Positions 1,343-14,354 of a DNA stretch of 14,354 nucleotides are shown here, in pieces. A program made the translations under genes and the position numbers. Under the pieces are notes generated by a model, which ran no database searches, was not told where the DNA came from, and saw nothing but the letters and a program-made list of their open reading frames with translations. This stretch comes from Flavobacterium psychrophilum (GTDB lineage: Bacteria; Bacteroidota; Bacteroidia; Flavobacteriales; Flavobacteriaceae): contig CAMBHH010000082.1 in the NCBI GenBank assembly GCA_945866505.1, positions 1 through 14,354 of the forward strand, written 5' to 3'. Within the stretch, counting starts at the first letter, position 1, and each line of letters opens with the position of its first letter.

Positions 1343-2389
1343 TTAATTGATTAAAGCTAAACCGTCTGGGATTTTACCTGTTGCAATAGTACTAATTACA
1401 GTAAATGTTTTCATATCAATCACTTCAATTCTATTAGCATTGGAATTAGCCACAAAAGCATATAACCCATTAGGATGAATTAAAATACCAACGGGGCGGG
1501 GCGTATGATAAAGTATTTTTTCAACCAGATTAGCCTTTCCGTGAAGTCTTATCGTTTTGATTTGCTTTTTAGTGTGCTGGTCATAAACAGAAATGGTTCC
1601 ATCGCTTGCATTCGTAACCAAACAATGTTTGCCGTCAATTGAAAACTTGAGTCTCAAGGACTCTTTTCCACTGGTTAAAGTATTTGTAATTTGGTACGTG
1701 GCAGTGTTGATAACAGAAATTGTGTTTTCTTTATTGTTGGTTACCCAAAGTTCCAAACCATCAGGCGTAATGTCAATACCTTCTGTTTTGAATCCGCAAG
1801 GAATAATTTTAATTACTTTATCCAAATTTAGGTCAATAACGCTAACAGAACCCGAGTTAATGTTGGATACATACGCAAACGGTTTTTTGGGATGAAGTAC
1901 TAGAAGATGACTGATTATTTGTTGAGTTGGTATGTTTTTTTCGACAATTCCTTTTTCTACATCTACCACTAACAAATTATTACCTATATCGGTAACCACT
2001 CCTACTTTATTGGATTTTGGAAAAGCAACGATTCCGTGTGGTGCTATACTTCCCTCTAACTCAATTGTTTTTTCTATTGTATTAGTTTTTGCGTTGATAA
2101 CCGTGATGCTTTTTCCTAAAACGTCTGGAGTTCCGTAATTAGTAACCACAACTTTACTTTGGTTAGTCAAAGTTGTTGGATCGTGAGGTTCTACTTCAAT
2201 AGGAATTTCTGCGATTTCTTTGCCCTTAAACAAATCAAAAACCGTAATACTGCTGCTGCGTTTATTTACAATATATAATTTTCCATCGGTTTGTATGGTA
2301 TACGAAGGTTTTCTAATAACATAAATTGTTATCTGCAACGCTATAAAGCACAATAAACCAAATAATAATGCTAATTTTATTTTTTTCAT
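1343..2389 (-). CDS. YVTN-family seven-bladed beta-propeller protein, copy 1
   Basis: This 348-residue protein has an N-terminal hydrophobic anchor (about residues 5-25) and about seven 40-residue propeller blades over residues 36-345. Recognisable strands include LYIVN (38-42), AYVSN (172-176), DITPDG (206-211), LWVTN (214-218) and AFVANS (311-316). Cys14 lies in the hydrophobic segment but lacks a lipobox (Leu precedes it), so lipoprotein processing is unlikely. Cys198 and Cys256 are shared with the second copy. Unlike copy 2, it keeps the proline-histidine motifs EPHD (67-70) and PHG (117-119) in the early blades. The ATG overlaps the stop of the GMC gene as ATGA, which implies translational coupling with the oxidoreductase and is the best local evidence that the propeller works with it. 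The biochemical role is unknown; a periplasmic partner or scaffold is plausible. Confidence 0.87.
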   Translation of the reverse strand: MKKIKLALLFGLLCFIALQITIYVIRKPSYTIQTDGKLYIVNKRSSSITVFDLFKGKEIAEIPIEVEPHDPTTLTNQSKVVVTNYGTPDVLGKSITVINAKTNTIEKTIELEGSIAPHGIVAFPKSNKVGVVTDIGNNLLVVDVEKGIVEKNIPTQQIISHLLVLHPKKPFAYVSNINSGSVSVIDLNLDKVIKIIPCGFKTEGIDITPDGLELWVTNNKENTISVINTATYQITNTLTSGKESLRLKFSIDGKHCLVTNASDGTISVYDQHTKKQIKTIRLHGKANLVEKILYHTPRPVGILIHPNGLYAFVANSNANRIEVIDMKTFTVISTIATGKIPDGLALIN

Positions 2390-4071
2390 AATTGATTGGA
2401 CTGAAATTGTTTAAGAGCAAATTGGCATGCTCTGGCGGTAATTGCCATATAAGTTAAGGACGGATTTTGGCAACCAGAAGAGGTCATAAAGCTTCCATCA
2501 GTGATAAAAACATTTTTTACATCGTGCATTTGGTTGTATTTATTTAAAACTGAAGTTTTGGGATCAAGTCCCATTCTTGCAGTTCCCATTTCGTGTACTG
2601 CTGAGCCTGGATCAGGATAAGTTCTATAACTTCCAACATTTTTAAAACCTGCTTTGGTTAGCATTTCCTCGCTGGCTTTAGTCATATGTTCCAGCATAGC
2701 CAATTCATTTTCTCTGTATTTAAAGTCGACCTTAATTATGGGAAGCCCCCATTGATCTACATTTTCGGAATCTAGTGTAATTTTGTTTTCATAATTGGGT
2801 AACGATTCTCCTCGTCCACCAAGAGCAATTTCCCATTTTCCTGGAGTTGCCAAATTAGCTTTTAAAGAAACCCCAAAACCAACTGTATCCACTGATTGCC
2901 AATTTTCTCTTTCTCCTTTGCCTTGAATACCATAACCTCTTAAAAAATCAGTTTTTTCTGTTTTAGTATCTAAATTTTGAAATCTTGGTATATAAAATGT
3001 TCCGGGAGATCTGCCTTCATAATATTTGTCTTGTAACCCGTCAAATGTCCCATAAGAACCTTCATTTACTACGTGATCCATTAGATTGTGCCCAACTTGT
3101 AAGCTAGAATTACCCAGACCATTAGGAAAAGACGGCGAAACAGAATTCAGTAAAATGGCAGCGGTTGCTATGGCTGAGGCATTTAAGAATATTATTTTCG
3201 CATAATAATTCGTTTCCTTTTTAGTTATTGCATCAATTACAACTACACCAATTGCTTTTTTTTGCACTTCATCATATAGTACTTCTTTTACAATAGAATC
3301 TGGTCTTAGGGTTAAATTACCAGTTTCCTGAGCATCTAACAATGTTGATGAATTGCTGCTAAAATAGCCAGAAAATGGACATCCTCTACTGCATAGATTG
3401 CGATATTGACAAGGTCCTCGGCCTTTTTTAGCCTCGGTTAAATTGGCGACTCTGCCATTTATTATAACCCGATCTGAATATTCTGTACTAATTTTTTCTT
3501 GTAAATGCAATTCTACAGCGTTCATTGGGATTGGTGGCAAAAAAATACCGTCTGGCAAGTGCGGTAGCGATTCTGCACGACCACTAATTCCAACATATTC
3601 CTCAACGTAATCGTACCATTTGGCTAAATCGTTGTATCGAATTGGCCAATCCACTCCGTGCCCATCTTTTTTATTGGCTTCAAAATCCAAATCAGAAAGG
3701 CGGTAACACTGACGTCCCCAAGTTAATGATCGACCACCAACCTGATACCCTCTAATCCATTTGTAAGGATTAACTTGAGTGTATGGGTGCTGCTTATCGT
3801 TGACATAAAAATGTTTATTGGTGTCATCACAATGACTGCTTTGGACGGGTCTTTCTTCCAAATCTTTGTTGCATAAATGACCTCTGTTTTTAAAATCCCA
3901 AGGACTTTGTAAAGCAGTTGTATAATCGACAATATGATCTACTTTGCGACCTCTTTCTAATAGCAAAGTTTTTAAACCTCCTTCAGTGAGCTCTTTGGCT
4001 GCCCAACCTCCACTGATACCTGAACCTACTACAATAGCATCAAAAGTATTTTCTGTTGTTTGATTTTTCAT
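2386..4071 (-). CDS. GMC-family FAD oxidoreductase, sugar dehydrogenase catalytic subunit
   Basis: This 561-residue flavoprotein should oxidise a hydroxyl of a sugar or sugar-like alcohol and pass electrons to an acceptor. The N-terminal dinucleotide fold shows GSGISG (16-21) and the ribose-binding Glu39 in LLERG. The C-terminal GMC domain shows the catalytic histidine in VHEMGTARMG (His493) and the second active-site position in QNP (Asn536). Cys221, Cys227 and Cys231 form a CX5CX3C cluster, in the region where the FAD-dependent glucose dehydrogenases carry an Fe-S cluster near the flavin. There is no signal peptide. In this family the large subunit is exported with its Tat-bearing small subunit, and that gene lies 7 bases upstream. 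The stop overlaps the start of propeller copy 1 (ATGA). The substrate cannot be told from sequence; glucoside 3-dehydrogenase, gluconate and glucose dehydrogenase-like activities are all possible. Confidence 0.9.
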   Translation of the reverse strand: MKNQTTENTFDAIVVGSGISGGWAAKELTEGGLKTLLLERGRKVDHIVDYTTALQSPWDFKNRGHLCNKDLEERPVQSSHCDDTNKHFYVNDKQHPYTQVNPYKWIRGYQVGGRSLTWGRQCYRLSDLDFEANKKDGHGVDWPIRYNDLAKWYDYVEEYVGISGRAESLPHLPDGIFLPPIPMNAVELHLQEKISTEYSDRVIINGRVANLTEAKKGRGPCQYRNLCSRGCPFSGYFSSNSSTLLDAQETGNLTLRPDSIVKEVLYDEVQKKAIGVVVIDAITKKETNYYAKIIFLNASAIATAAILLNSVSPSFPNGLGNSSLQVGHNLMDHVVNEGSYGTFDGLQDKYYEGRSPGTFYIPRFQNLDTKTEKTDFLRGYGIQGKGERENWQSVDTVGFGVSLKANLATPGKWEIALGGRGESLPNYENKITLDSENVDQWGLPIIKVDFKYRENELAMLEHMTKASEEMLTKAGFKNVGSYRTYPDPGSAVHEMGTARMGLDPKTSVLNKYNQMHDVKNVFITDGSFMTSSGCQNPSLTYMAITARACQFALKQFQSNQL

Positions 4072-4078
4072 AGTCTAA

Positions 4079-4651
4079 TTATTTTGTTGCCCACGATTTT
4101 TGATTAACACCAAGCTTGGTAATGGCTATATATTTTCCTGGAATAAGTTGGTACTCTAAATGTTTTGTAGCGCCAAGTTCGGAAGTACAGTAACCTTCGA
4201 TGGTTAATGATTTTAAAATATCGTAAAAAGGGCGTCCTTGTAATTTATTACTAATTTTCGAAAATAAGCCGTTGGAACCTGAGTTCTTGTCTAAATCTTC
4301 TACAATTTTAATTTTTTGAATCGCGTTACATTTTTCAAAATTATGATTATTGTTGCTAACACAATTTTCCTGCAACTCGGTCAGTCCATTTATGAAATTA
4401 TTGTATTCTTTTATTGGCGCACAGTCTTCCATATAACTAATTATATATTCGTGTACCAATGCTTCTTTAGCACCTGGAGTTGTTGTTGGAGGTATAATAA
4501 CGTTTGCTAATTCGGCAATTAGGGTCGCCTGAGCTTTTAATTTTCCTCTTTCTTGGTTAGAATGTCCAATGAAATATTTTACACCAATTACTGAAGCGTA
4601 ACCAAGTCCTGCGACTCCCAAAATCCCTTTAATGGCTGTTCTTCTATTCAT
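4079..4651 (-). CDS. Gluconate 2-dehydrogenase subunit 3 family protein (Tat-type small subunit)
   Basis: This 190-residue protein is the small, Tat-targeted chaperone-like subunit of membrane sugar dehydrogenases. It starts with a twin-arginine-like leader, NRRTAIKG, followed by a hydrophobic Gly/Ala/Val stretch to about residue 28. This is close to the S/T-RR-x-F-L-K consensus, but with Ala in the Phe position. The family hallmarks follow: a helix ending in ANVIIPPT then TPGAKEA (about 49-65), and near the C-terminus IEGYCTSELGATKHLEYQLIPG (about 151-172). It lies directly before the GMC gene with a 7-base gap, the standard small-large subunit order, so the two should form one complex exported together. 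The 44-base gap to the upstream glycosyltransferase shows no Bacteroidetes-type promoter (TTTG / TAnnTTTG) that I can see. Confidence 0.88.
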   Translation of the reverse strand: MNRRTAIKGILGVAGLGYASVIGVKYFIGHSNQERGKLKAQATLIAELANVIIPPTTTPGAKEALVHEYIISYMEDCAPIKEYNNFINGLTELQENCVSNNNHNFEKCNAIQKIKIVEDLDKNSGSNGLFSKISNKLQGRPFYDILKSLTIEGYCTSELGATKHLEYQLIPGKYIAITKLGVNQKSWATK

Positions 4652-4695: not shown

Positions 4696-5886
4696 TTAGT
4701 TTGCGCGTTTCGATCTTTCCCAGTTCACAGATTGTGATTTTTTCATGTAGCGAAAAAATCCTAATACAACCGATAAGTTCATAATGAAAAAGTAATAAGG
4801 AACAAATAGAATTTTTATCCTTGTTTCCCTATTTTCAAGAAACCAACCTGTTAATGCAGCAACATAGAAAAGCAGTTGCAACCAAAACATAATGGAATAA
4901 AGTCCAAAACTAAAAAGCCCCTCATTAAAAGCTAGGACAAATAGCAGTGGTATTAATACAACTAAACAGAGTGGAGTTAAAGTCCAACGCAAAACACGGT
5001 GTGAAATGTATTGAAATGAAAGCGTACCATATTTAAAAATGTTAAGTAAAGACCGTAACCTAACGATGGCTTGAATTCCTCCTGCAGAAATTCGAATTTT
5101 TCGTTTTAATTCTTCTTTTACATTGGCAGAAGCCGATTCAATTGCGTAAGCATCAGGATCATATTGAATAGTATACCCATCTTGTGCGACTCTTAGTGAA
5201 ATTATGAAATCATCGAGTAAAGTATCAGGCTCTACGTGGCGATACAATTCGGTTCTAATCGCAAACAATTCGCCGGCCGCTCCAACAACGGAATACAATT
5301 CAGCATCCCATTTTTTCAAAGTAGATTCATACTTCCAATACAAGCCTTCGCCTGCTCCAGAGGCAACATCCGTTTCTTTATTTATAATTCTTTTTTCCCC
5401 TGAAACACAACCTACTTTGGGCGTAGCAAATAAATTTACAATGCGTCTGATGGATTCTTTACCAAGTCCAGTATTGGCATCACTAAATATGACTATAGGT
5501 GTTTTAACAAATGCCATACCACGGTTCATCGCACCAATTTTTCCGTTTCTCGCATCTAAATGGTGTACCGTTGTGTTTGGATATTTACGTACTAAATCTG
5601 GCGTGCCATCATCGGAACCATCGGTAACCCAAATGATGTTTAATTTTTCTTTTGGGTAATCCAATTCTAATGAATTTTTCATTTTAGCATCAACATAATC
5701 CTTTTCGTTATAAGCGGCTATAAACAAGGTCACCTCTGGTTCATAATCAGGATTAAGAATAGGTTTTTTGCCAATATTAAAAACCCGACGAATTTTAATA
5801 ATTAGGTATAACAAAATACCATAACCCACATAAGTATATACTATTATGAAAAGTAGTATCCAAAAAATAATTTTTAAAATTAGCAT
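4696..5886 (-). CDS. Membrane-associated family 2 glycosyltransferase
   Basis: This 396-residue inverting GT2 faces the cytoplasm and probably extends the polysaccharide repeat unit or glycan chain. A transmembrane helix (about 3-30) precedes the GT-A domain. The GT-A domain has the nucleotide-sugar motif FIAAYNE (55-61), DGSDD (89-93), the metal-binding SDAN (135-138) and the acceptor-side LLDDF (223-227). Where processive synthases have Q/RxxRW, this protein reads RKIRISAGG (262-270). About four C-terminal hydrophobic helices occupy residues 293-375, and the protein ends in a basic WERSKR tail. The architecture is that of the BcsA/HasA-like membrane GT2s, but the missing tryptophan motif argues for a non-cellulose, perhaps non-processive enzyme. 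It is the last polysaccharide gene before the dehydrogenase module. The donor sugar is unknown. Confidence 0.88.
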   Translation of the reverse strand: MLILKIIFWILLFIIVYTYVGYGILLYLIIKIRRVFNIGKKPILNPDYEPEVTLFIAAYNEKDYVDAKMKNSLELDYPKEKLNIIWVTDGSDDGTPDLVRKYPNTTVHHLDARNGKIGAMNRGMAFVKTPIVIFSDANTGLGKESIRRIVNLFATPKVGCVSGEKRIINKETDVASGAGEGLYWKYESTLKKWDAELYSVVGAAGELFAIRTELYRHVEPDTLLDDFIISLRVAQDGYTIQYDPDAYAIESASANVKEELKRKIRISAGGIQAIVRLRSLLNIFKYGTLSFQYISHRVLRWTLTPLCLVVLIPLLFVLAFNEGLFSFGLYSIMFWLQLLFYVAALTGWFLENRETRIKILFVPYYFFIMNLSVVLGFFRYMKKSQSVNWERSKRAN

Positions 5887-5931: not shown

Positions 5932-6942
5932 TTATTTTTTTCCAAGAAACAGCAATCGTGTGATCTTAAATCGTTTCAGAATTTTTTCGGTTAGAATAGG
6001 CAATGACAGGCCCGCAACTAAAGAAACAGTAAAAATTAAAGCAGAAGATTGAATATCAAACCTCTTAGCAATAATTCTTCCGCTGGCAGTTCCGAAGCCG
6101 TGAAATAAATAAATGGAATAGGCAAAACCGCCAAACCAGATTAACCATTTTGTTTCAAATCGATACCTTAATAGCAATATAGTTCCTGTAATTCCAATTA
6201 GCAAACCGATTATATTGTCTTTGTAAACAGTGTAATCAATGACTTTAAACCAAGATAATTGTTGGATGGTTATACAAAGTACCAAAATTATTGGGATGGA
6301 ATATTTCATATGCTGTCTTTGAAAAAAGACTTTGAATCGGTTTAAACCAACTCCTAAAATAAAATAAGGCAATAAATACATTGCTCCTTTGTAACTGAAA
6401 TAATTAGGCAGTTCCTCAGAAATAACCACGTCTCGGATTAGTAAAGTAAAAAGGGAAACACCAAAAAATACAAACCAGCTATTGATGGTATTCATTTTAT
6501 TGAAGGAATCAATAAACGCCATAATAACGAAAACAAGAAATAGCGAATATAAATACCAATATAAGGTGTACGGAAATAACAGTAATTTCCAAATATCCAA
6601 GAGATTTCCTTTGTTATTTGTTCCGGGTGTAAAATATTGAACCAAAAAATAGCACATTCCAACGACTAACATTGGCACAAGAACCCGCATCACTTTTTTT
6701 AGTATAAAATCATTTGTTTTTTCGTAACTAACAGGTTTAAGGGTATAGACCCATCCAGCAATGACCGTAAAAAGAGGCATTTGTATGGAGTCTATAAAGG
6801 TGTCGTAAAAATAACGTAAAAAAGAATCATCACGAACCATCATGCCACCATCTGATTCCGATCCGATAACATGACCTATAACTACCAAAATGATAACGGC
6901 ACCTCTGAGCGTTTCTATAGTTTGATCTTTATCCGAATTCAT
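5932..6942 (-). CDS. Acyltransferase family 3 membrane protein (polysaccharide O-acylation)
   Basis: This integral-membrane acyltransferase should move an acyl group, usually acetyl, onto sugar hydroxyls during polysaccharide assembly. From the ATG at 6942 it is 336 residues. It opens MNSDKDQTIETLRG, the usual family start, followed by the first helix with the invariant histidine in VVIGHVIG (His24). About ten hydrophobic helices follow, and the family's FxxxAGW-type segment is present as FTVIAGWVY. The frame stays open upstream to a TTG at 6990, which would add 16 residues and overlap the previous gene. I prefer the ATG because the family signature begins there and it leaves a natural 29-base gap. 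It sits next to a soluble O-acetyltransferase, so the glycan may carry two different acyl decorations. Confidence 0.88.
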   Translation of the reverse strand: MNSDKDQTIETLRGAVIILVVIGHVIGSESDGGMMVRDDSFLRYFYDTFIDSIQMPLFTVIAGWVYTLKPVSYEKTNDFILKKVMRVLVPMLVVGMCYFLVQYFTPGTNNKGNLLDIWKLLLFPYTLYWYLYSLFLVFVIMAFIDSFNKMNTINSWFVFFGVSLFTLLIRDVVISEELPNYFSYKGAMYLLPYFILGVGLNRFKVFFQRQHMKYSIPIILVLCITIQQLSWFKVIDYTVYKDNIIGLLIGITGTILLLRYRFETKWLIWFGGFAYSIYLFHGFGTASGRIIAKRFDIQSSALIFTVSLVAGLSLPILTEKILKRFKITRLLFLGKK

Positions 6943-6971
6943 TTTATAAAATCTTGATGGTTTTATGATTA

Positions 6972-7589
6972 CTAGATAGCTTTTTCCCAAGTTTTGGTCT
7001 CAGGATTGTACGTTTTAATCACTCTTGCTGGATTGCCTACAGCAACTGAAAACGGAGGAATATTTTTGGTAACAATACTTCCCGCCGCAACAATAGAATG
7101 CTTGCCAATGGTAACTCCTGCTACGACAACTACATTGGCTCCAATCCAGCAGTCATCTTCAACAATAATAGGAGCTGTAGAAACGCCTTGCACATGAATT
7201 GGAAGACTTACATCTTCGTAGTTATGATTTAAGCCGGACAGCGTTATATTCTGTGCAAGCCTAATGTCATTTCCTATCTTAACTGGCCCAATAATGGTAT
7301 TGCTTAATCCAATTTTAGTTCTATCGCCAATAATGACATCGCCAACTCCATTGTTTATAGCCGAAAAATCTTCAATTGTAGAATCTATTCCCAATTCAAA
7401 TCTATTCCAAGGGACAACGTCCATTCTCGTTCTGGGTCTAATATAAGCACCCTTGCCTTTTTTATGATAAAAAGGATTCACAAACCATTTGATCCAAAGT
7501 CTGGGTCTGGTTTGTTTAGGAATAAGAATGGACCAATGAACCCATTTTTTTATAGATTCATTCGATTTTATTTTTTCTTTTAATCCCAT
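6972..7589 (-). CDS. Left-handed beta-helix O-acetyltransferase (WcaF/maltose acetyltransferase type)
   Basis: This 205-residue cytoplasmic, acetyl-CoA-dependent sugar O-acetyltransferase belongs to the hexapeptide-repeat class. Isoleucine/valine-rich hexapeptides run from about residue 66 to 178, for example VIIGDRTKIG, IIGPVKIGND, CWIGANVVVVAGVTIG and SIVAAGSIVTKNI. The probable catalytic histidine is in the loop SGLNHNYED (His122), and the coenzyme-A-binding end has VAVGNPARVIK (182-191), as in the WcaF and maltose acetyltransferase group. The first 60 residues are basic and not part of the helix. It overlaps the upstream glycosyltransferase by 10 bases, implying coupled translation, and most likely acetylates the repeat unit or a precursor sugar before export. 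The target hydroxyl is not predictable. Confidence 0.88.
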   Translation of the reverse strand: MGLKEKIKSNESIKKWVHWSILIPKQTRPRLWIKWFVNPFYHKKGKGAYIRPRTRMDVVPWNRFELGIDSTIEDFSAINNGVGDVIIGDRTKIGLSNTIIGPVKIGNDIRLAQNITLSGLNHNYEDVSLPIHVQGVSTAPIIVEDDCWIGANVVVVAGVTIGKHSIVAAGSIVTKNIPPFSVAVGNPARVIKTYNPETKTWEKAI

Positions 7590-8794
7590 TTTATACGATT
7601 TTTAGTTGAAGTTATAATGGCATTGTAAATAGCTTTAACATTGTTCTCCCAAGTATGACTTTTAGCAAAATGTATTCTTTTAGCAATCAGCTCTTTAGAA
7701 TTATCAGCCAAAGCTTTTTCGGTTAAACTGATGTAATCTTCCTTGGTAGCACCTAAATAAACACACTCTTTAAACATTTCCATTGCTTTGGTTTGGGTAG
7801 CAATTATGGGTTTTCCCATGGCTAAATATTCATCAATTTTTCGGGGATAATTTCCAATTGTTAAATCGTTAGCCAACTGTGGATTCATTGCCACGTCAAA
7901 CCCTTTGACATAAGCAGGTAACTCAGATTCATCTTTGCTTCCTAAAAAATAAACATTGGATAAATGGTGCAAATTAGAATTTTTGAAGTCTGTGTCTTCA
8001 GGACCTACTAATACAATACTCCAATTTTTTCTTTGATTTGCAAGATGCACAATCAGGGCTATATCAAGTCTCAATGTGGTCAAAGAACCCACATAACCAA
8101 TTACTGGTTTTGGAATGTCTTTGAATTCATCTGGGATTTTTATAGTATCATTTTCATCGCTAAAATGCGAAACATCACATCCTTGACCTACCATAAAGCT
8201 ATTCGGATTGTATTGCAAACCAAAGTCGGAGAAAAATTCTGAATTGGTAGTCAATACATCTGCGAGTTTAATAATTTCAGGCTCTAAACGTTCTCCGTGT
8301 TTTTGCCAATAAGGTACTTTTACAAGATAATCTCGCATATAATAAACATATACTTGTGGCTTCAAAAATTCCTTTAAATGCTGGCCTAAAAACATCGAAC
8401 TGTCATTAAAGAGAATTACATTTTTGAAATCCAAACGGGAAACCGCAGTTTGAATATCATTGGCAAATCGGCGTGAATTTCTTTTATTTAATATTTTAAA
8501 AACGGAATGTAATGGAATCCAATTAATAGAATCAATGGTATTTTTGGGATATAAATTCCATAAATTGTGCCCAATTTCGACTAGGTCTGTTTCTAAACCT
8601 TTTTTAATTCGTATCCTTTTTTGAATGCTTTCTTTGTGTTTGTCGTTACGCTCCGTAGATTTCATCATTGGAGGATTCACATAAAGTACGCGATTGTTTT
8701 TGGCAAATTCTAAAGCAATATTTTTACAGTTACTGCCTATTTCTATATCCCAAGCTTGTATTCCGACCACTATAATATCTTTTCCCTTAATCAT
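7580..8794 (-). CDS. GT-B glycosyltransferase (TuaH-like group 1)
   Basis: This 404-residue retaining GT-B enzyme probably adds one sugar of the repeat unit at the inner membrane. The N-terminal domain opens IIVVGIQAWDIEIGSNCKNIA and includes the RVLYVNPP strand (35-42), like the TuaH-type enzymes that start by locating the partner family of transferases. The C-terminal nucleotide-sugar domain shows IGYVGSL (232-238), a VLVGP strand (261-265), and NYPRKIDEYLAMGKPIIAT (315-333), the family's donor-binding region in place of the usual EX7E. It overlaps the GT4 gene upstream by 8 bases and the acetyltransferase downstream by 10 bases, so all three are probably translated together. The donor and linkage are unknown. 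Confidence 0.85.
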   Translation of the reverse strand: MIKGKDIIVVGIQAWDIEIGSNCKNIALEFAKNNRVLYVNPPMMKSTERNDKHKESIQKRIRIKKGLETDLVEIGHNLWNLYPKNTIDSINWIPLHSVFKILNKRNSRRFANDIQTAVSRLDFKNVILFNDSSMFLGQHLKEFLKPQVYVYYMRDYLVKVPYWQKHGERLEPEIIKLADVLTTNSEFFSDFGLQYNPNSFMVGQGCDVSHFSDENDTIKIPDEFKDIPKPVIGYVGSLTTLRLDIALIVHLANQRKNWSIVLVGPEDTDFKNSNLHHLSNVYFLGSKDESELPAYVKGFDVAMNPQLANDLTIGNYPRKIDEYLAMGKPIIATQTKAMEMFKECVYLGATKEDYISLTEKALADNSKELIAKRIHFAKSHTWENNVKAIYNAIITSTKNRIKWD

Positions 8795-9944
8795 AATGTT
8801 GCGTTTTTATTTCATTATACAATAGAAGAACTTGTTCGGCCATATTTTTCCATGAAAATAATTTGTTTCGATCTATTCCTTTTTTACAGAGTGACTCATA
8901 ATAAGCCGGATCACCAAGGATTTTGATAATAGCCTGCGTGATTTCTTCAGGATTATACGGATTGATAACGTGGGCCGAATCACCTGCAACTTCTGGCATT
9001 GACGAAGTATTAGAGGTAATTACAGGCACACCACAGCCCATAGCTTCTAGCATTGGAATACCAAAACTTTCACGTAAGGATGGGTATAGAAAAATAGTAC
9101 ATAAAGAATAAATGGCTGGTAAATCCGTATTGATTACATATCCTGTTAACACAATGCTATTGATGAGGTCTTTGTCGCCAATTTCAAGTAACAATTTTTC
9201 GAGTTCGCGGGCATCATAATCCAGCATCACTAATTTATAATCGGATTTGCTTTGCTTTAGGAAATCTGAAAAAGCTTTTAAGGTTCCAATGGTATTTTTT
9301 TTAGGATCGGTATTACCAAGGAAAAAGAAAAAATGATCCGGTAAATGATACTTTTCTTTGACTCTTTTTAATTCTGATTCATCGGTAACTGGTTTGAAAT
9401 GAGTGCTAACCCCATTGTAAATTGCGGTGAGACGTTTGTCATCTTTCATTCCAAAAAACTCCCCAATCCGATTTTTCTCAAAATGGGAAACGGTAACTAT
9501 TTTATCACTTTTTTTAACAACCCAAGGCACAATTAATTTTCGATAAGCGTTGCCAAATTTTTGATAGGGAGTTGCACTTCCGGTCAGTATTTTATAATAA
9601 CTGCTCTCCATATAAATAATGTCGTGCAGAATGGTAATCAATGGAATGTCAGTAAAAATGGGAGCGGTGTTACTGGTGCAATGCAAAATCTCACAACCGT
9701 ATTTTTTGGCAGCCTTAGGCAATGCTATTTGTTCCCACATTGGATAGGAACCTCCATCAAGTTGAATAATTTTAAAATTCGGGGTTTCCTTTAAAACGGT
9801 ATTGTCTTCATCCGGTTTTACGAAGATAAAATACTCATTTTCGGTATCAATAAGTTGCAGGTTTCTTATCAATTCCAAAGCCACCATATCCATACCATGT
9901 TTTTTCTTGCGAAAAAGGCGTTGACCTTCAATTCCTATTTTCAT
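8787..9944 (-). CDS. Family 4 glycosyltransferase
   Basis: This 385-residue retaining GT4 is likely cytoplasmic and peripheral to the membrane. It begins MKIGIEGQRLFRKKKHG, the acceptor-side Gly-rich loop of the mannosyltransferase-like subgroup. It continues with TVSHFEKNRI (151-160) and the inter-domain IYNGVS (175-180). The donor domain has FFLGNTDPKKN (207-217), GYVINTDLPAIYS (268-280) and the signature ESFGIPMLE (Glu292 and Glu300 of EX7E), followed by GVPVITSNTSSMPEVAG. Many relatives transfer mannose, but the sequence does not fix the sugar. It shares an 8-base overlap with the next gene. The two genes form a GT-B pair that may act consecutively. Confidence 0.9.
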   Translation of the reverse strand: MKIGIEGQRLFRKKKHGMDMVALELIRNLQLIDTENEYFIFVKPDEDNTVLKETPNFKIIQLDGGSYPMWEQIALPKAAKKYGCEILHCTSNTAPIFTDIPLITILHDIIYMESSYYKILTGSATPYQKFGNAYRKLIVPWVVKKSDKIVTVSHFEKNRIGEFFGMKDDKRLTAIYNGVSTHFKPVTDESELKRVKEKYHLPDHFFFFLGNTDPKKNTIGTLKAFSDFLKQSKSDYKLVMLDYDARELEKLLLEIGDKDLINSIVLTGYVINTDLPAIYSLCTIFLYPSLRESFGIPMLEAMGCGVPVITSNTSSMPEVAGDSAHVINPYNPEEITQAIIKILGDPAYYESLCKKGIDRNKLFSWKNMAEQVLLLYNEIKTQHYD

Positions 9945-9989: not shown

Positions 9990-11174
9990 TTAATTGGTAG
10001 TACCATGTTTGGTATGAATAAATTTTTTGTTAGCCCCTTTTATTTTCAACAATGACAAAAGCATCATAAACATCCCTTTTGGTAAACTCAGTAAAGCTTG
10101 AAGCGTTTTGGTATTGTAAAATGATTTTGGTATTGAAAAAAGGAATGACAAAACACAGGCTATTGCAATGATACCCCAACAATTAGTATATATGATTTCA
10201 TTGTTAAAGAGGTAATTGCTGATTACAAATAATCCTCCAAAAACGATGACACCACCTAATAATAAAACCCTTGGCGGCTGAATAAATTGAATTGCTTTGT
10301 CGAAATAATCAATATTTCCTTTTGTCAAAAGGTCTTTTAGAGCATTTAAAAAATCTTTTCTAAAATAATGCAGTTGTGCTGAAAGCCAACGTCTTCTTTG
10401 GTTGCCAAAAACATCTGCTTTTTGAATTTTTTCATCATAAACTAAGGCATGGTCAAGGTAAATAATTTTATGTCCTGCCTTTAACATTTTTAACTCGATT
10501 TCTTTGTCGAAACCACCTACAGCTGTAACGGTTGACATAAGCGATTTAAAATAATCGTATTTAAAAGCCATCCCCGAGCCAATGATGGCAGATGAAAGTC
10601 CCAATGCTATATGGCCTTTTCTGAAAATATGATTGTTTATTTCTTCACTAACAGCGTCTAGAACTGCCCAAGAATTATTCGTGTTTTTTGCTGTTCTATG
10701 ACCTTGAACTGCAATAAAACCCTGTTCGAAAACAGCATTAATTTTACCTAAAAAATCACGGGCCATTAAATTGTCGGCATCTAGAACAACGGCAATCTCA
10801 TAGTTTTCGGTGAGAGTCGCCATCGCCTTATTCAAAGCTTTAGACTTGGTACTTTTATCAAAACTAACTTCAATCAGTTTTATTGGCAATACTTTTAATT
10901 GATCGAGAGTTTCTTTTAAAAAGGAATCCGCTATAATAATTACATCAAAAAGATGGGCTGGATAATCTTGTAATAATGCCGAATTAGCTACTTCAATGAT
11001 GACTTCATCTTCTTTGTATCCGGGAATGAGCACTGCAATTTTTTTTTGTTCTCCTTTAGATTTAAAAGTGGGCTGTTTGTAAAACAAACCTGCAATTGAA
11101 AACACAAAAATGTAGAGTGTAGCCAATCCCAAAAAGATCAGCAAAACAATTTGTATTAGATTAAATACTACCAT
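9990..11174 (-). CDS. Processive-type family 2 membrane glycosyltransferase
   Basis: This 394-residue membrane GT2 has an N-terminal helix (about 5-31), a cytoplasmic GT-A domain, and C-terminal hydrophobic segments at about 304-347 plus a further one near 358-376. Motifs are in order: IPGYKEDE (50-57), a VLDADN metal site (130-135), GGFDKEIELK (220-229) carrying the acidic acceptor residue, and Q-R-R-R-W at 259-263, the QxxRW motif of HasA/NodC/BcsA-like enzymes. The usual DxSxD near residue 82 reads ADSFLKE. The QRRRW motif suggests a chain-extending or HasA-like enzyme rather than a one-step transferase, but in a Wzx/Wzy locus it probably adds one sugar. It lies 78 bases after the PRTase-HAD gene, the largest gap in the run. 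Confidence 0.88.
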   Translation of the reverse strand: MVVFNLIQIVLLIFLGLATLYIFVFSIAGLFYKQPTFKSKGEQKKIAVLIPGYKEDEVIIEVANSALLQDYPAHLFDVIIIADSFLKETLDQLKVLPIKLIEVSFDKSTKSKALNKAMATLTENYEIAVVLDADNLMARDFLGKINAVFEQGFIAVQGHRTAKNTNNSWAVLDAVSEEINNHIFRKGHIALGLSSAIIGSGMAFKYDYFKSLMSTVTAVGGFDKEIELKMLKAGHKIIYLDHALVYDEKIQKADVFGNQRRRWLSAQLHYFRKDFLNALKDLLTKGNIDYFDKAIQFIQPPRVLLLGGVIVFGGLFVISNYLFNNEIIYTNCWGIIAIACVLSFLFSIPKSFYNTKTLQALLSLPKGMFMMLLSLLKIKGANKKFIHTKHGTTN

Positions 11175-11252: not shown

Positions 11253-12194
11253 CTATTTTTTTAATTTTCGTATTATATCTCTTATTTTTAAAGCATATTT
11301 TCGCAAAAAGGGAAAGTGTTTTCCGCTTTTCAGATTGTACATTAAAGATTCTGCCTCAAAAATCATCTCAAAATTTGCTGTACACAAAACCGGTTTTTTC
11401 GACAATCTATTGATCTCCACCGCTTGGTGGTATTCACTTTCAACGAATAACACATACGGTTTAGCCATATAAGCTTTAGCTTTATGATCTCCGTGATTAT
11501 TGGCTCGTTGACGGGCTTCCATATTTGGCAAGTCTAACATTACCAAATCATTGTATTTGATATTGTTAGCCTTTAACCAAGTTTCGGTTTCTTTGCGGTA
11601 TTTCTCTAAACGAGAGGTTACAACAGTTCCAATTTTACTGCCAGGAATAAATAGAGGAGGAGCATTCAAAAGAAAATCTATATATTTTGGACCATCATCA
11701 TTTTGTTCTGGTAAGGGGTCTGCGCACAATACACCATCAATATCAAAACAGGCTTTTTCTAAAGTGGTATGGTTTAAAATATTCCATTGGAAATATCTTG
11801 GCAATGGTACAATTTCAAAAAAGTAGTCTACCATTTTTTCTTTTCCAGCAATAATATAAACGGCACAATATTTTATGTCAAATTTTGATTCCAGATGTTT
11901 TAAACTTTCTCTTACTTCTACCATCGCCGAACCAGAGGCAATGCTGTCATCTACCACCAATATTTTTTTAAATTCGGAAATATCAAAGAATTGGCTTCTT
12001 GCACCTGCTTTATAAATATGACCATTCAAAAAGGAATGAATGTCAGTATAAGGCCTGTTTAAATACAAAGACAATAAATTGGCTGGAAGCATACCGCTTC
12101 TAGGCACACCAACTATCAAATCGAAATCACGGGGAATAATATTTAATCTTTTTAGGATGATATTATTCAAATCGGTAATATTTCTATAGTTCAT
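11253..12194 (-). CDS. Phosphoribosyltransferase-HAD phosphatase fusion, candidate PRPP-dependent glycan enzyme
   Basis: This 313-residue protein joins two enzymatic domains. Residues 1 to about 140 are a type I phosphoribosyltransferase: the pyrophosphate loop is VGVPRSGMLPA (28-38) and the PRPP-binding loop is ILVVDDSIASGSA (78-90), with the paired Asp82-Asp83 and the S-G of the usual T-G. Residues about 147-285 are a HAD phosphatase: motif I FDIDGVL with Asp151 and Asp153, motif II VVTSR (Thr193), a lysine candidate in the HGDHKAK region (about 234-240), and motif IV VLFVESEYHQA, where Glu252 and Glu254 replace the usual Asp pair. The role is inferred. PRPP-derived ribofuranose is known to be installed in some bacterial glycans as ribose 5-phosphate and then dephosphorylated by a HAD enzyme, so this fusion could do both steps. 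Salvage or nucleotide roles remain possible. Confidence 0.85.
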   Translation of the reverse strand: MNYRNITDLNNIILKRLNIIPRDFDLIVGVPRSGMLPANLLSLYLNRPYTDIHSFLNGHIYKAGARSQFFDISEFKKILVVDDSIASGSAMVEVRESLKHLESKFDIKYCAVYIIAGKEKMVDYFFEIVPLPRYFQWNILNHTTLEKACFDIDGVLCADPLPEQNDDGPKYIDFLLNAPPLFIPGSKIGTVVTSRLEKYRKETETWLKANNIKYNDLVMLDLPNMEARQRANNHGDHKAKAYMAKPYVLFVESEYHQAVEINRLSKKPVLCTANFEMIFEAESLMYNLKSGKHFPFLRKYALKIRDIIRKLKK

Positions 12195-12245: not shown

Positions 12246-13721
12246 CTAATTTTTTAGTAATTGCAATTCAGTTTCTTCAACTGGCGTATCAAAAGTTTCT
12301 GGATTAGAGATTATTGCCAATGAAGCATACATTAATAAGGCTGTGGGCATCCCACCAAAAACCGCATTCCCATAAGACGCTGCCATTATTCCAAGAATTC
12401 CCGCAATCAGGGCACTTAGTTTTTGCTTTGCTATAGGATCTCGAATTTTAAACATGACTTTTAATGAAGCTTTTCCGAGAACAAAAAACAAAATACACAA
12501 ATGGATTGTTAAACCAATGATTCCCAGCTCGGCCCATATCATGACATACCAGCTATCTGTAGCCACATGTGAAAGAAAAGCGTTTGGCAAAAATCGCTGT
12601 GCCTTATCACCAGCGTGTCCTATACCACCGCCAAATGGCCTTGATGCCAAATAACCTTTAAGGATTTTTTGATTGTTAAGTCGTACTTGTAATGATGGTT
12701 CATTGGGGTCAAAAGCCGATCTCATTCTTCTTATTTGATCATTTCCATTTGCAATCATTGTAAATTTAAAAAATACAAACAACATAATTACTAGCGTAAA
12801 GCCAACAACAACAACGCGTACATTTTTACTCAAAATAAAATAGGTCATAAAACCTGCGAAGGGTACACTTATTGATCCCCTAGTGCCTGATATTAGCATT
12901 CCATAAAGTCCCAATATACCCATTGTGAGAAAAAATATTTTTGGTAATCCTTTTTTAGACATAGAATAAAGAATGCCAACCACACCGGCAAGTCCTTGGT
13001 TAGCGCCGAATTGGCCTGCATCACTCATAAAGGAAAAAATTCTTAACTTGCCAAATAAAATATGGGTTTGGGCTGCGCCGCCATTAAGCCATGCTTGTTC
13101 TGCTTCATCTACTCCAAAAAACAATTGAATCATTCCCTTTAGTGTCGCTATTATGGAGAAAACACCCCATACGTAAAGAAACACATCCAGTTTTTTTTGA
13201 GTGTTTATAAGCATCAAAGTTAGCGGAATAAACAAAAAGAAATAAAACCCAATACCTCTGCCCGCAATCCAAGCCTCTACACTTCGAGCTTCTGGATTTA
13301 CGAGTTGAAATATGCAATACAATAACCATATAGCTGCAAAGTAGGTAATGTTCTTATTAACTGGAGACCAATCAATTCTTTCTTTAAATTTAGAAAAAAA
13401 TAAGGCTAAATAGGTCAAAATAATAATGCCGTCAATACCGAAACCTAGGGGTAGTCCGGGAATATAGCGTGTTGCGCCAAGTACTAAGAAATTAAGTCCA
13501 ATTGCTGTAAAAAATCCTAATATAGGATGGTTAAATAGCTTATATAAATACAAACCACCAAAAATCAATGCAAATAAAATCCCTAAACCAGTCATTTCTA
13601 ATTTAGCAAGTATTACAGCAAAAAAGACAGCTGCTATAAATAGCAGTAGCAAAGCCTTAGGTTTAGTTATAGCACCTGAGCCAGAATTTTCATCAAAAGG
13701 GTTTATATTGACGCTTGTCAT
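12246..13721 (-). CDS. O-antigen/EPS polymerase, Wzy-like (O-antigen ligase family)
   Basis: This 491-residue protein has about ten to twelve hydrophobic segments and is an inner-membrane polymerase that links repeat units on the periplasmic side. The ligase-family core includes SGTRGS (278-283) at the start of a transmembrane segment, a large periplasmic loop around 319-400, and RPFGGGIGHAG (361-371), with the catalytic-region arginines of Wzy_C proteins. The first 20 residues are non-hydrophobic and the C-terminus is acidic. Its ATG directly follows the stop of the flippase (TAA-ATG), so the two are probably co-translated. A WaaL ligase would have the same fold, but the adjacency to Wzx and the glycosyltransferases favours a polymerase. 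A 51-base gap precedes the PRTase-HAD gene. Confidence 0.87.
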   Translation of the reverse strand: MTSVNINPFDENSGSGAITKPKALLLLFIAAVFFAVILAKLEMTGLGILFALIFGGLYLYKLFNHPILGFFTAIGLNFLVLGATRYIPGLPLGFGIDGIIILTYLALFFSKFKERIDWSPVNKNITYFAAIWLLYCIFQLVNPEARSVEAWIAGRGIGFYFFLFIPLTLMLINTQKKLDVFLYVWGVFSIIATLKGMIQLFFGVDEAEQAWLNGGAAQTHILFGKLRIFSFMSDAGQFGANQGLAGVVGILYSMSKKGLPKIFFLTMGILGLYGMLISGTRGSISVPFAGFMTYFILSKNVRVVVVGFTLVIMLFVFFKFTMIANGNDQIRRMRSAFDPNEPSLQVRLNNQKILKGYLASRPFGGGIGHAGDKAQRFLPNAFLSHVATDSWYVMIWAELGIIGLTIHLCILFFVLGKASLKVMFKIRDPIAKQKLSALIAGILGIMAASYGNAVFGGMPTALLMYASLAIISNPETFDTPVEETELQLLKN

Positions 13722-14354
13722 TTACTTTACTTTTTTAGTTATTTTTAAGTAACCCTCATAGCGGTTATTGGTGGCTTTATTAAGAAGCACAGAATAGAAT
13801 TTTAGCCCACTTGAAAAAATTTCTTTGAACGATAATGTCAATTCTTTATTCAAAAAATACATTCCTAGCCAAATACCGACTAATGTAAATAGTATTGATG
13901 CGACTGCTACAAGTAGCAAAGATTTGAAGATAAAAATGGCTATTAAATCTCCAACAACATTAGCAATTACCATAAAAAACACTTTTAAAGCATTAATATT
14001 TGGCTTGTTTATGCTGTCAAGACCGATGCCAGTCATTCGATCTATGGGCAATAAAAGTCCGTAAATTGAAAATACACGAACAATATCAATGACATTAAAT
14101 CCGGTAATTGGATCTGTTTTTAGATATTGATTTCCCGAAAGTAAAAACACAAAAAACTCGGCGAATATAAAGGTGAACAAACTTATAAATACAAATAAAT
14201 AGGTCAGTGCACCAGTATAGGAGTAAAACAAATCTTTTACTTCATCTATTTTATGATGTAAGCTTGCTTTAGACATTTTAGGAAATGCAGTGGCAACAAA
14301 ACTTCTTAAAGGAATTTGTTGTAATTCAGTAAGTTTTAATGGGATACTATAAAG
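13722..14354 (-). CDS. Wzx-type polysaccharide flippase, C-terminal part (5' end beyond window)
   Basis: The frame is open from the right window edge to a stop at 13722, giving 210 residues. An internal Met at 14276 is not the true start: the codons before it (LYSIPLKLTELQQIPLRSF and on) continue a hydrophobic, in-frame polypeptide. This is the C-terminal half of an MOP-superfamily oligosaccharide flippase, which moves undecaprenyl-linked repeat units across the inner membrane. From the internal Met it shows a short basic segment, then about five transmembrane helices (FVFISLFTFIFAEFFVFLL; VFSIYGLLLP; ALKVFFMVIANVVGDL; FIFKSLLLVAVASILFTLV and others), with a lipid-linked-oligosaccharide-transport type RMTGIGLDSI loop. 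The stop abuts the polymerase start. The missing N-terminus lies outside the window. Confidence 0.85.
   Translation of the reverse strand, partial: LYSIPLKLTELQQIPLRSFVATAFPKMSKASLHHKIDEVKDLFYSYTGALTYLFVFISLFTFIFAEFFVFLLSGNQYLKTDPITGFNVIDIVRVFSIYGLLLPIDRMTGIGLDSINKPNINALKVFFMVIANVVGDLIAIFIFKSLLLVAVASILFTLVGIWLGMYFLNKELTLSFKEIFSSGLKFYSVLLNKATNNRYEGYLKITKKVK

Follow-up and report, generated by a model that had tools for sequence, protein, structure and literature searches.

The gene examined here lies in a 14,354-nucleotide stretch of Flavobacterium psychrophilum DNA (contig CAMBHH010000082.1; hereafter the window) and encodes a fusion of a type I phosphoribosyltransferase (PRTase) with a HAD phosphatase, which we consider reasonably likely to be a one-gene PRPP-dependent ribofuranosyltransferase of exopolysaccharide. 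The protein probably builds ribose into the sugar coat by a kind of enzyme unlike those characterized so far. Observed here are the predicted fold, two intact active sites, the loss of purine-site residues, and the operon context, from which we infer the ribose product, the glycan acceptor, the beta configuration, the order of steps, and the membrane contact of the C-terminal helix. In the proposed mechanism, the PRTase domain would join PRPP to a hydroxyl group on the repeat unit, itself bound to its lipid, to form a beta-ribofuranoside 5-phosphate, the fused Pnkp-type HAD domain would then remove the 5'-phosphate, Wzx would flip the ribosylated unit, and Wzy would subsequently polymerize it, with the C-terminal helix possibly holding the enzyme at the membrane.

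More tentatively, we propose that the family forms a second class of glycan ribofuranosyltransferases that use PRPP, with an evolutionary origin of its own, in Bacteroidota, Alphaproteobacteria, and phages, in which a purine-salvage-type PRTase has been re-aimed at sugar hydroxyls and joined to a Pnkp-type phosphatase, and which in some flavobacteria and rhizobia is accompanied by a probably periplasmic GMC dehydrogenase that would oxidize the ribose to riburonic acid; we regard this wider proposal as possible, somewhat short of probable. If it is true, several thousand proteins, some of them named hypoxanthine PRTases, would be glycosyltransferases, and ribofuranose in the glycans of marine and soil Bacteroidota, rhizobia, and phages could be predicted from sequence. 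A canonical nucleotide-synthesis fold would then have been shown to make O-glycosides in sugar coats, and a gene candidate would be at hand for the riburonic acid of rhizobial exopolysaccharide, which is read by a plant receptor.

Domain architecture and active sites of the fusion protein

The fusion protein (313 aa; positions 11253..12194, stop included; all window features described here lie on the minus strand) was delineated using the ORF list, Pfam, and a structure model, which predicts a soluble alpha/beta fold. Its type I PRTase domain (residues 1-142; 11769..12194), XGPRT-like in its predicted fold, contains the PRPP loop (residues 78-90; 11925..11963) with the vicinal pair Asp82-Asp83, recognized in the sequence and in the alignment. 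PF00156, the sole Pfam family matching the protein at E 1, scored 33.7 bits against a cut-off of 26.3, and this match together with the acidic pair of the PRPP loop assigns the domain to the type I PRTases.

The second domain (residues 143-276; 11367..11768) is a Pnkp-phosphatase-like HAD phosphatase. Its motif I, FDIDGVL (residues 150-156; 11727..11747), contains D151 and D153, invariant in the 153 aligned rows, and the alignment also located the motif II region VTSRLEKYR (residues 192-200, including T193; 11595..11621), motif III Lys238 (11481..11483; 151/153 rows, the remaining two being gaps), and motif IV Glu252-Ser253 (11436..11441). The set D151/D153, T193, K238, and E252 identifies a HAD phosphatase and is conserved across the rows, apart from two that have gaps at motifs III and IV. 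The acid of HAD motif IV is usually an aspartate, and in the fusion family it is a glutamate; by this residue, and by having no kinase domain, the HAD part differs from the T4 Pnkp 3'-phosphatase and Pnkp1.

Across the alignment (88 cellular and 65 viral members), D83 was present in 153/153 rows and D or E occupied position 82 in 152/153. The acidic pair and the HAD catalytic residues were both intact in 150/153 rows, the three exceptions being two rows truncated where their locus stops and a second Rhodobacter copy. Among cellular members, P132, R133, F135, W137, and N138 were also near-invariant. The initial annotation had described a 313-residue protein carrying the PRPP loop at residues 78-90 and HAD motif I at residues 150-156; both are present with their residues kept, and a fused PRTase-HAD protein with both active sites intact is thus confirmed as an observation. 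The second Rhodobacter copy (Rhodobacter sp. CZR27, locus L003, 14605-15579) has a degraded PRPP loop and an intact HAD half.

The protein ends in a basic amphipathic helix (residues 296-313; 11256..11309) with a net charge of +7 and the highest hydrophobic moment of the whole fusion protein, which makes a contact with the membrane surface possible for this segment.

Glycan operon context and the nucleobase alternative

All 13 non-overlapping ORFs of the window lie on one strand, separated by -19 to +78 bases; longer plus-strand ORFs, e.g., 5204-5659, merely overlap them. The order begins with a Wzx-like flippase truncated by the window edge (13722..14354), whose counterpart in Flavobacterium salmonis (locus L009) belongs to PF01943, the window-edge fragment having no convincing Pfam match of its own, and continues with a Wzy-like polymerase (12246..13721; PF04932) and the fusion gene. 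Immediately downstream are a GT2 glycosyltransferase (9990..11174; PF13641), a GT4 glycosyltransferase (8787..9944; PF00534), a GT4-like glycosyltransferase (7580..8794; PF13692), a hexapeptide acyltransferase, probably an acetyltransferase (6972..7589; PF14602, PF00132), an acyltransferase-3 (5932..6990; PF01757), and another GT2 glycosyltransferase (4696..5886; PF13641). These are followed by a gluconate 2-dehydrogenase subunit 3-like protein (4079..4651; PF13618) and a GMC oxidoreductase (2386..4071; PF05199/PF00732). The last two genes of the operon encode beta-propeller proteins in tandem (289-2389), the one at 1343-2389 being assigned without a scan of that protein itself.

Gene order in F. 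salmonis is identical, and it is preceded there by genes encoding a UDP-sugar dehydrogenase, a PF02397 sugar transferase, an OEP protein, and a protein whose GNVR match stays below the cut-off, which marks the window as an exopolysaccharide-type locus. The closest relatives of the window protein in the tree are also from Flavobacteriaceae. The earlier placement of the fusion gene between a polymerase and glycosyltransferases, inside a Wzx/Wzy-type glycan locus, was correct.

The survey for co-occurrence with Wzx/Wzy genes, suggested in the initial annotation, covered 80 of 442 genome loci, analyzed as Bacteroidota loci (all named as such except one 'uncultured bacterium'). Using window-derived profiles, a GT, Wzy, or Wzx-like gene was found within two genes on either side of the fusion gene in 78/80 loci, the other two having no such neighbor by the profiles used, and a Wzy-like gene lay within eight genes in 51 of the 53 loci with at least 15 ORFs. 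Gene -1 was co-directional with the fusion gene in 78/79 loci and matched Wzy_C in 36/79, Glyco_trans_1_4 in 28/79, and pyruvyltransferase in 5/79, whereas gene +1 was a GT2 glycosyltransferase in 53/76 and a pyruvyltransferase in 8/76. By contrast, when 12 other PRTase loci were taken as controls from nine of these genomes, GT, Wzy, or Wzx-like neighbors were found at 0/12; nine of the controls are the top-scoring HGPRTase match in their respective genomes, and the zero count covers every ORF within their span of ~1.5 kb on each side. The glycan context is thus supported for the family in Bacteroidota. A distant Bacteroidota member (locus L195) has no GT, Wzy, or Wzx-like ORF in its 3.9 kb.

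These data also bear on whether the protein is instead a nucleobase or nucleoside enzyme, the PRTase converting a base to its nucleotide and the HAD part yielding the nucleoside, either in salvage or as a nucleoside-like signal of the kind proposed for Ter systems. The closest folds to the predicted structure of the PRTase part are indeed the purine salvage enzymes XGPRT/HGXPRT, JGI annotation names some family members hypoxanthine PRTase, and Ter systems pair nucleobase PRTases with HAD phosphoesterases (PMC7824862). However, Pfam scans of the 155 genes directly beside the fusion gene (79 at -1 and 76 at +1) gave no match to a salvage or ter family at E 1e-5; the fusion gene is accessory and patchy; and a separate HGPRTase-family gene was found in 9/9 genomes tested, over the cut-off in seven of them.

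The base site argues in the same direction. Purine PRTases bind the base through an Asp, a Lys, and a stacking Trp, and when four solved purine PRTases were aligned to the family profile, this site comprised the PRPP-loop Asp, the Lys, and the Trp. None of the three letters was present in any of the 88 aligned cellular members, in which the Asp place holds A, S, G, N, K, R, or P, the Lys place never Lys, and the Trp place always Pro. Among the 65 viral members, Asp occurred in 0, Lys in 5, and Trp in 6, with at least one of these letters in 11/65; all three were found together in 0/153 rows. Trp137, kept in 152/153 rows, could itself stack on a base. Scores fell far below the NCBIfam equivalog cut-offs for HPT_Archaea (19/200 bits), xanthine PRT (17.1/138), and HGPRTase (13.4/150), and neither these nor the base-site residues place the protein among the 6-oxopurine salvage PRTases. 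Purine salvage was rejected as the main reading on account of the lost purine-site residues, the separate HGPRTase-family gene, and the glycan context, and we regard the nucleobase or nucleoside role as a whole as unlikely. Retention of the PRPP and HAD catalytic residues, loss of the purine-site residues, the separate HGPRTase-family gene, and the glycan context give partial support to the earlier interpretation of the protein as a ribofuranose-installing enzyme.

Relation to characterized ribofuranose-transferring systems

The XGPRT/HGXPRT enzymes thus differ from the fusion protein both in the base-site loop Asp, Lys, and Trp, replaced in its cellular members, and in having neither an added HAD domain nor glycan neighbors. 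Three-component polyprenyl phosphoribose synthases, which likewise lead from PRPP to glycan pentofuranose and in some cases include a HAD-family phosphatase, as proposed here, belong to a UbiA-type membrane family. This family differs from the fold of the fusion protein, in which no UbiA membrane domain was found by Pfam at E 1 or in the soluble alpha/beta model. The acceptor of these synthases is a lipid (PMC11127046), and the fusion protein might by analogy transfer ribose 5-phosphate to undecaprenyl phosphate, its HAD domain then giving a lipid-linked ribose donor for use outside the membrane. The shared donor and HAD-type phosphatase of the three-component systems (PMC11127046) and the basic amphipathic C-terminus would fit such charging of a lipid carrier. 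The soluble PRTase fold lacking a UbiA-type domain speaks against it, as do the count of GT-C-type families, 0 among the 12 scanned of the 13 window proteins (elsewhere, one of 76 +1 neighbors matches PF03901), and the several viral members of 271-286 aa that end without the C-terminal stretch; we hold it to be quite improbable.

Direct transfer to a glycan hydroxyl, the reading we prefer, has precedent. Two-step ribofuranose chemistry is established (PMC11127046, PMC10299916, PMC12096443), and PRPP-dependent ribofuranosyltransferases with a HAD phosphatase have been characterized as gPRT-PRP of Klebsiella (PMC11127046, PMC11231755), Bcs3 (PMC10299916), Cj1432 (PMC12096443), and KrkA (PMC12887879). 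Like the fusion protein, the gPRT-PRP enzymes (Klebsiella O4/O7, Thermobacillus, Bcs3 CriT-CrpP, Cj1432, KrkA) combine a PRPP-using transferase and a HAD phosphatase in one protein and are encoded in glycan loci, and their net reaction, the addition of ribofuranose, is the one proposed for the fusion family. What distinguishes the two is the type of PRTase: the acidic pair of CriT is split between two separate loops (D680 and E818; PMC10299916), whereas the fusion family has the canonical vicinal pair, D82-D83, in a short XGPRT-like domain. Since this vicinal-DD PRTase is unlike that of gPRT-PRP, the family may be a separate invention; it would work like gPRT-PRP, with only putative membership in that group.

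In searches of a PDB set from which these proteins are perhaps absent, Bcs3 and the Thermobacillus enzyme appeared neither among the HAD-profile matches at E 10 nor among the best 60 of 76 whole-protein matches, and the 50 fold matches listed included neither CriT nor the Thermobacillus enzyme, an absence that carries no weight against homology. Earlier screens gave sequence outliers beyond the group treated in PMC11127046, and these could include the PRTase-HAD family. The initial annotation knew of no characterized protein with exactly this layout. That holds for the PRTase-HAD family, for which no characterization was found in the openly licensed PMC literature, but not for two-domain enzymes of this general design, of which the gPRT-PRP proteins are characterized examples (PMC11127046, PMC12096443, PMC12887879).

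Family distribution and the accompanying GMC dehydrogenase

The exact PRTase-HAD layout belongs to a large, patchy family, with 3882 proteins matching at E 1e-5. Scanning 84,980 species genomes with a pattern gave 473 matches, of which tblastn confirmed 442 as genome loci; occurrence within the phylum was 4/296 genomes, one being the genome at the center of this study, i.e., 3/295 further genomes. Plasmids carried the family in 41/72,556 records, all from alphaproteobacterial genera, with 43-49% identity among the 40 matches listed, and Mesorhizobium also encodes a member. A single-sequence scan of viral contigs found no relative, but alignment-based scans did, confirming 97 loci in addition to nine from an earlier scan; 80 of the 97 were retrieved, giving 89 loci with the nine, of which 80 yielded an ORF matching the family profile, corresponding to 65 distinct proteins. 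INPHARED phage records gave no family match by tblastn. One locus without a family ORF (L092) was dropped, one (L004) was added by coordinates, and the tree was built from 100 of the 153 rows. The viral-contig members (L100-L179) are highly diverse, and the Bacteroidota and alphaproteobacterial groups appear nested within them under a midpoint root used for drawing only. A role in anti-phage defense was rejected, as PADLOC run on five proteins gave only weak PRTase_III-A matches in two of them (E 0.006 and 0.001).

In Alphaproteobacteria, the fusion gene adjoins flippase-type and/or GT genes on Paracoccus, Rhodobacter, and Allorhizobium plasmids, an opposite-strand flippase gene adjoins it in two S. 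fredii records, and in Novosphingobium (L004) a distance of ~6 kb separates it from the closest GT-like genes. Plasmid loci of Rhizobium etli, beringeri, and lentis (L001, L098, L099) show no Wzx/Wzy set; a C14 caspase-like gene, a GT gene, and T6SS-type genes lie nearby, and the fusion proteins have a longer C-terminus. UbiA, GtrA, FAD, and SDR genes found upstream in R. etli resembled an arabinofuranose set, a reading that was rejected, their adjacency being taken as a coincidence since they are missing from the other two Rhizobium loci.

Some viral contigs carry GT and methyltransferase genes beside the fusion gene. Among -1/+1 viral neighbors (104/128 scanned; a first list had 40 of 45 ORFs scanned), single methyltransferase families matched up to 14 times, whilst matches to a UDP-galactopyranose mutase family and to each of several GT families numbered 1-4; with window-derived profiles, a GT-like gene lay within three genes on either side in 10/65 viral loci. 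One viral-contig protein of 806 aa consists of a methyltransferase domain followed by PRTase-HAD (L152 4438-6855, identical to L094 6453-8870). These diverse viral members, including the methyltransferase fusion, and the caspase-like and T6SS-type neighbors in Rhizobium would suit an enzyme whose target is not the repeat unit but, for instance, a protein or, in phages, a component of the virion or the DNA; the gene would then be an accessory of glycan loci. The position beside Wzy or GT genes, conserved in Bacteroidota, speaks against this, and we give it only a slim chance.

For the ribofuranosyltransferase reading, the GMC oxidoreductase of the window is a candidate oxidizer of a glycan sugar. 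A GMC gene with a small partner was found in 10/57 Bacteroidota loci with >9.5 kb downstream, and in two S. fredii records genes for a GMC oxidoreductase and its 147-aa partner immediately precede the fusion gene. The Rhodobacter GMC protein, encoded with its partner within a few kb of the two fusion copies, shares 68% identity with one of the S. fredii copies, and the small partners are 43% identical. The window GMC protein is distant from these (25% over the best stretch), and its own small partner, which has a signal-like start as read by eye, shows no similarity to that of S. fredii and Rhodobacter. Since a GMC dehydrogenase accompanies the fusion gene in some loci of rhizobia and flavobacteria, the ribose may become riburonic acid there: the dehydrogenase could oxidize its C5, in the periplasm if the partner's signal-like start is real. 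The exopolysaccharide of M. loti R7A ends in beta-riburonic acid (PMC8227245, PMC6144797), and the portions of these two sources covered name no transferase for this terminal residue. In Novosphingobium, a GMC match lies ~12 kb from the fusion gene.
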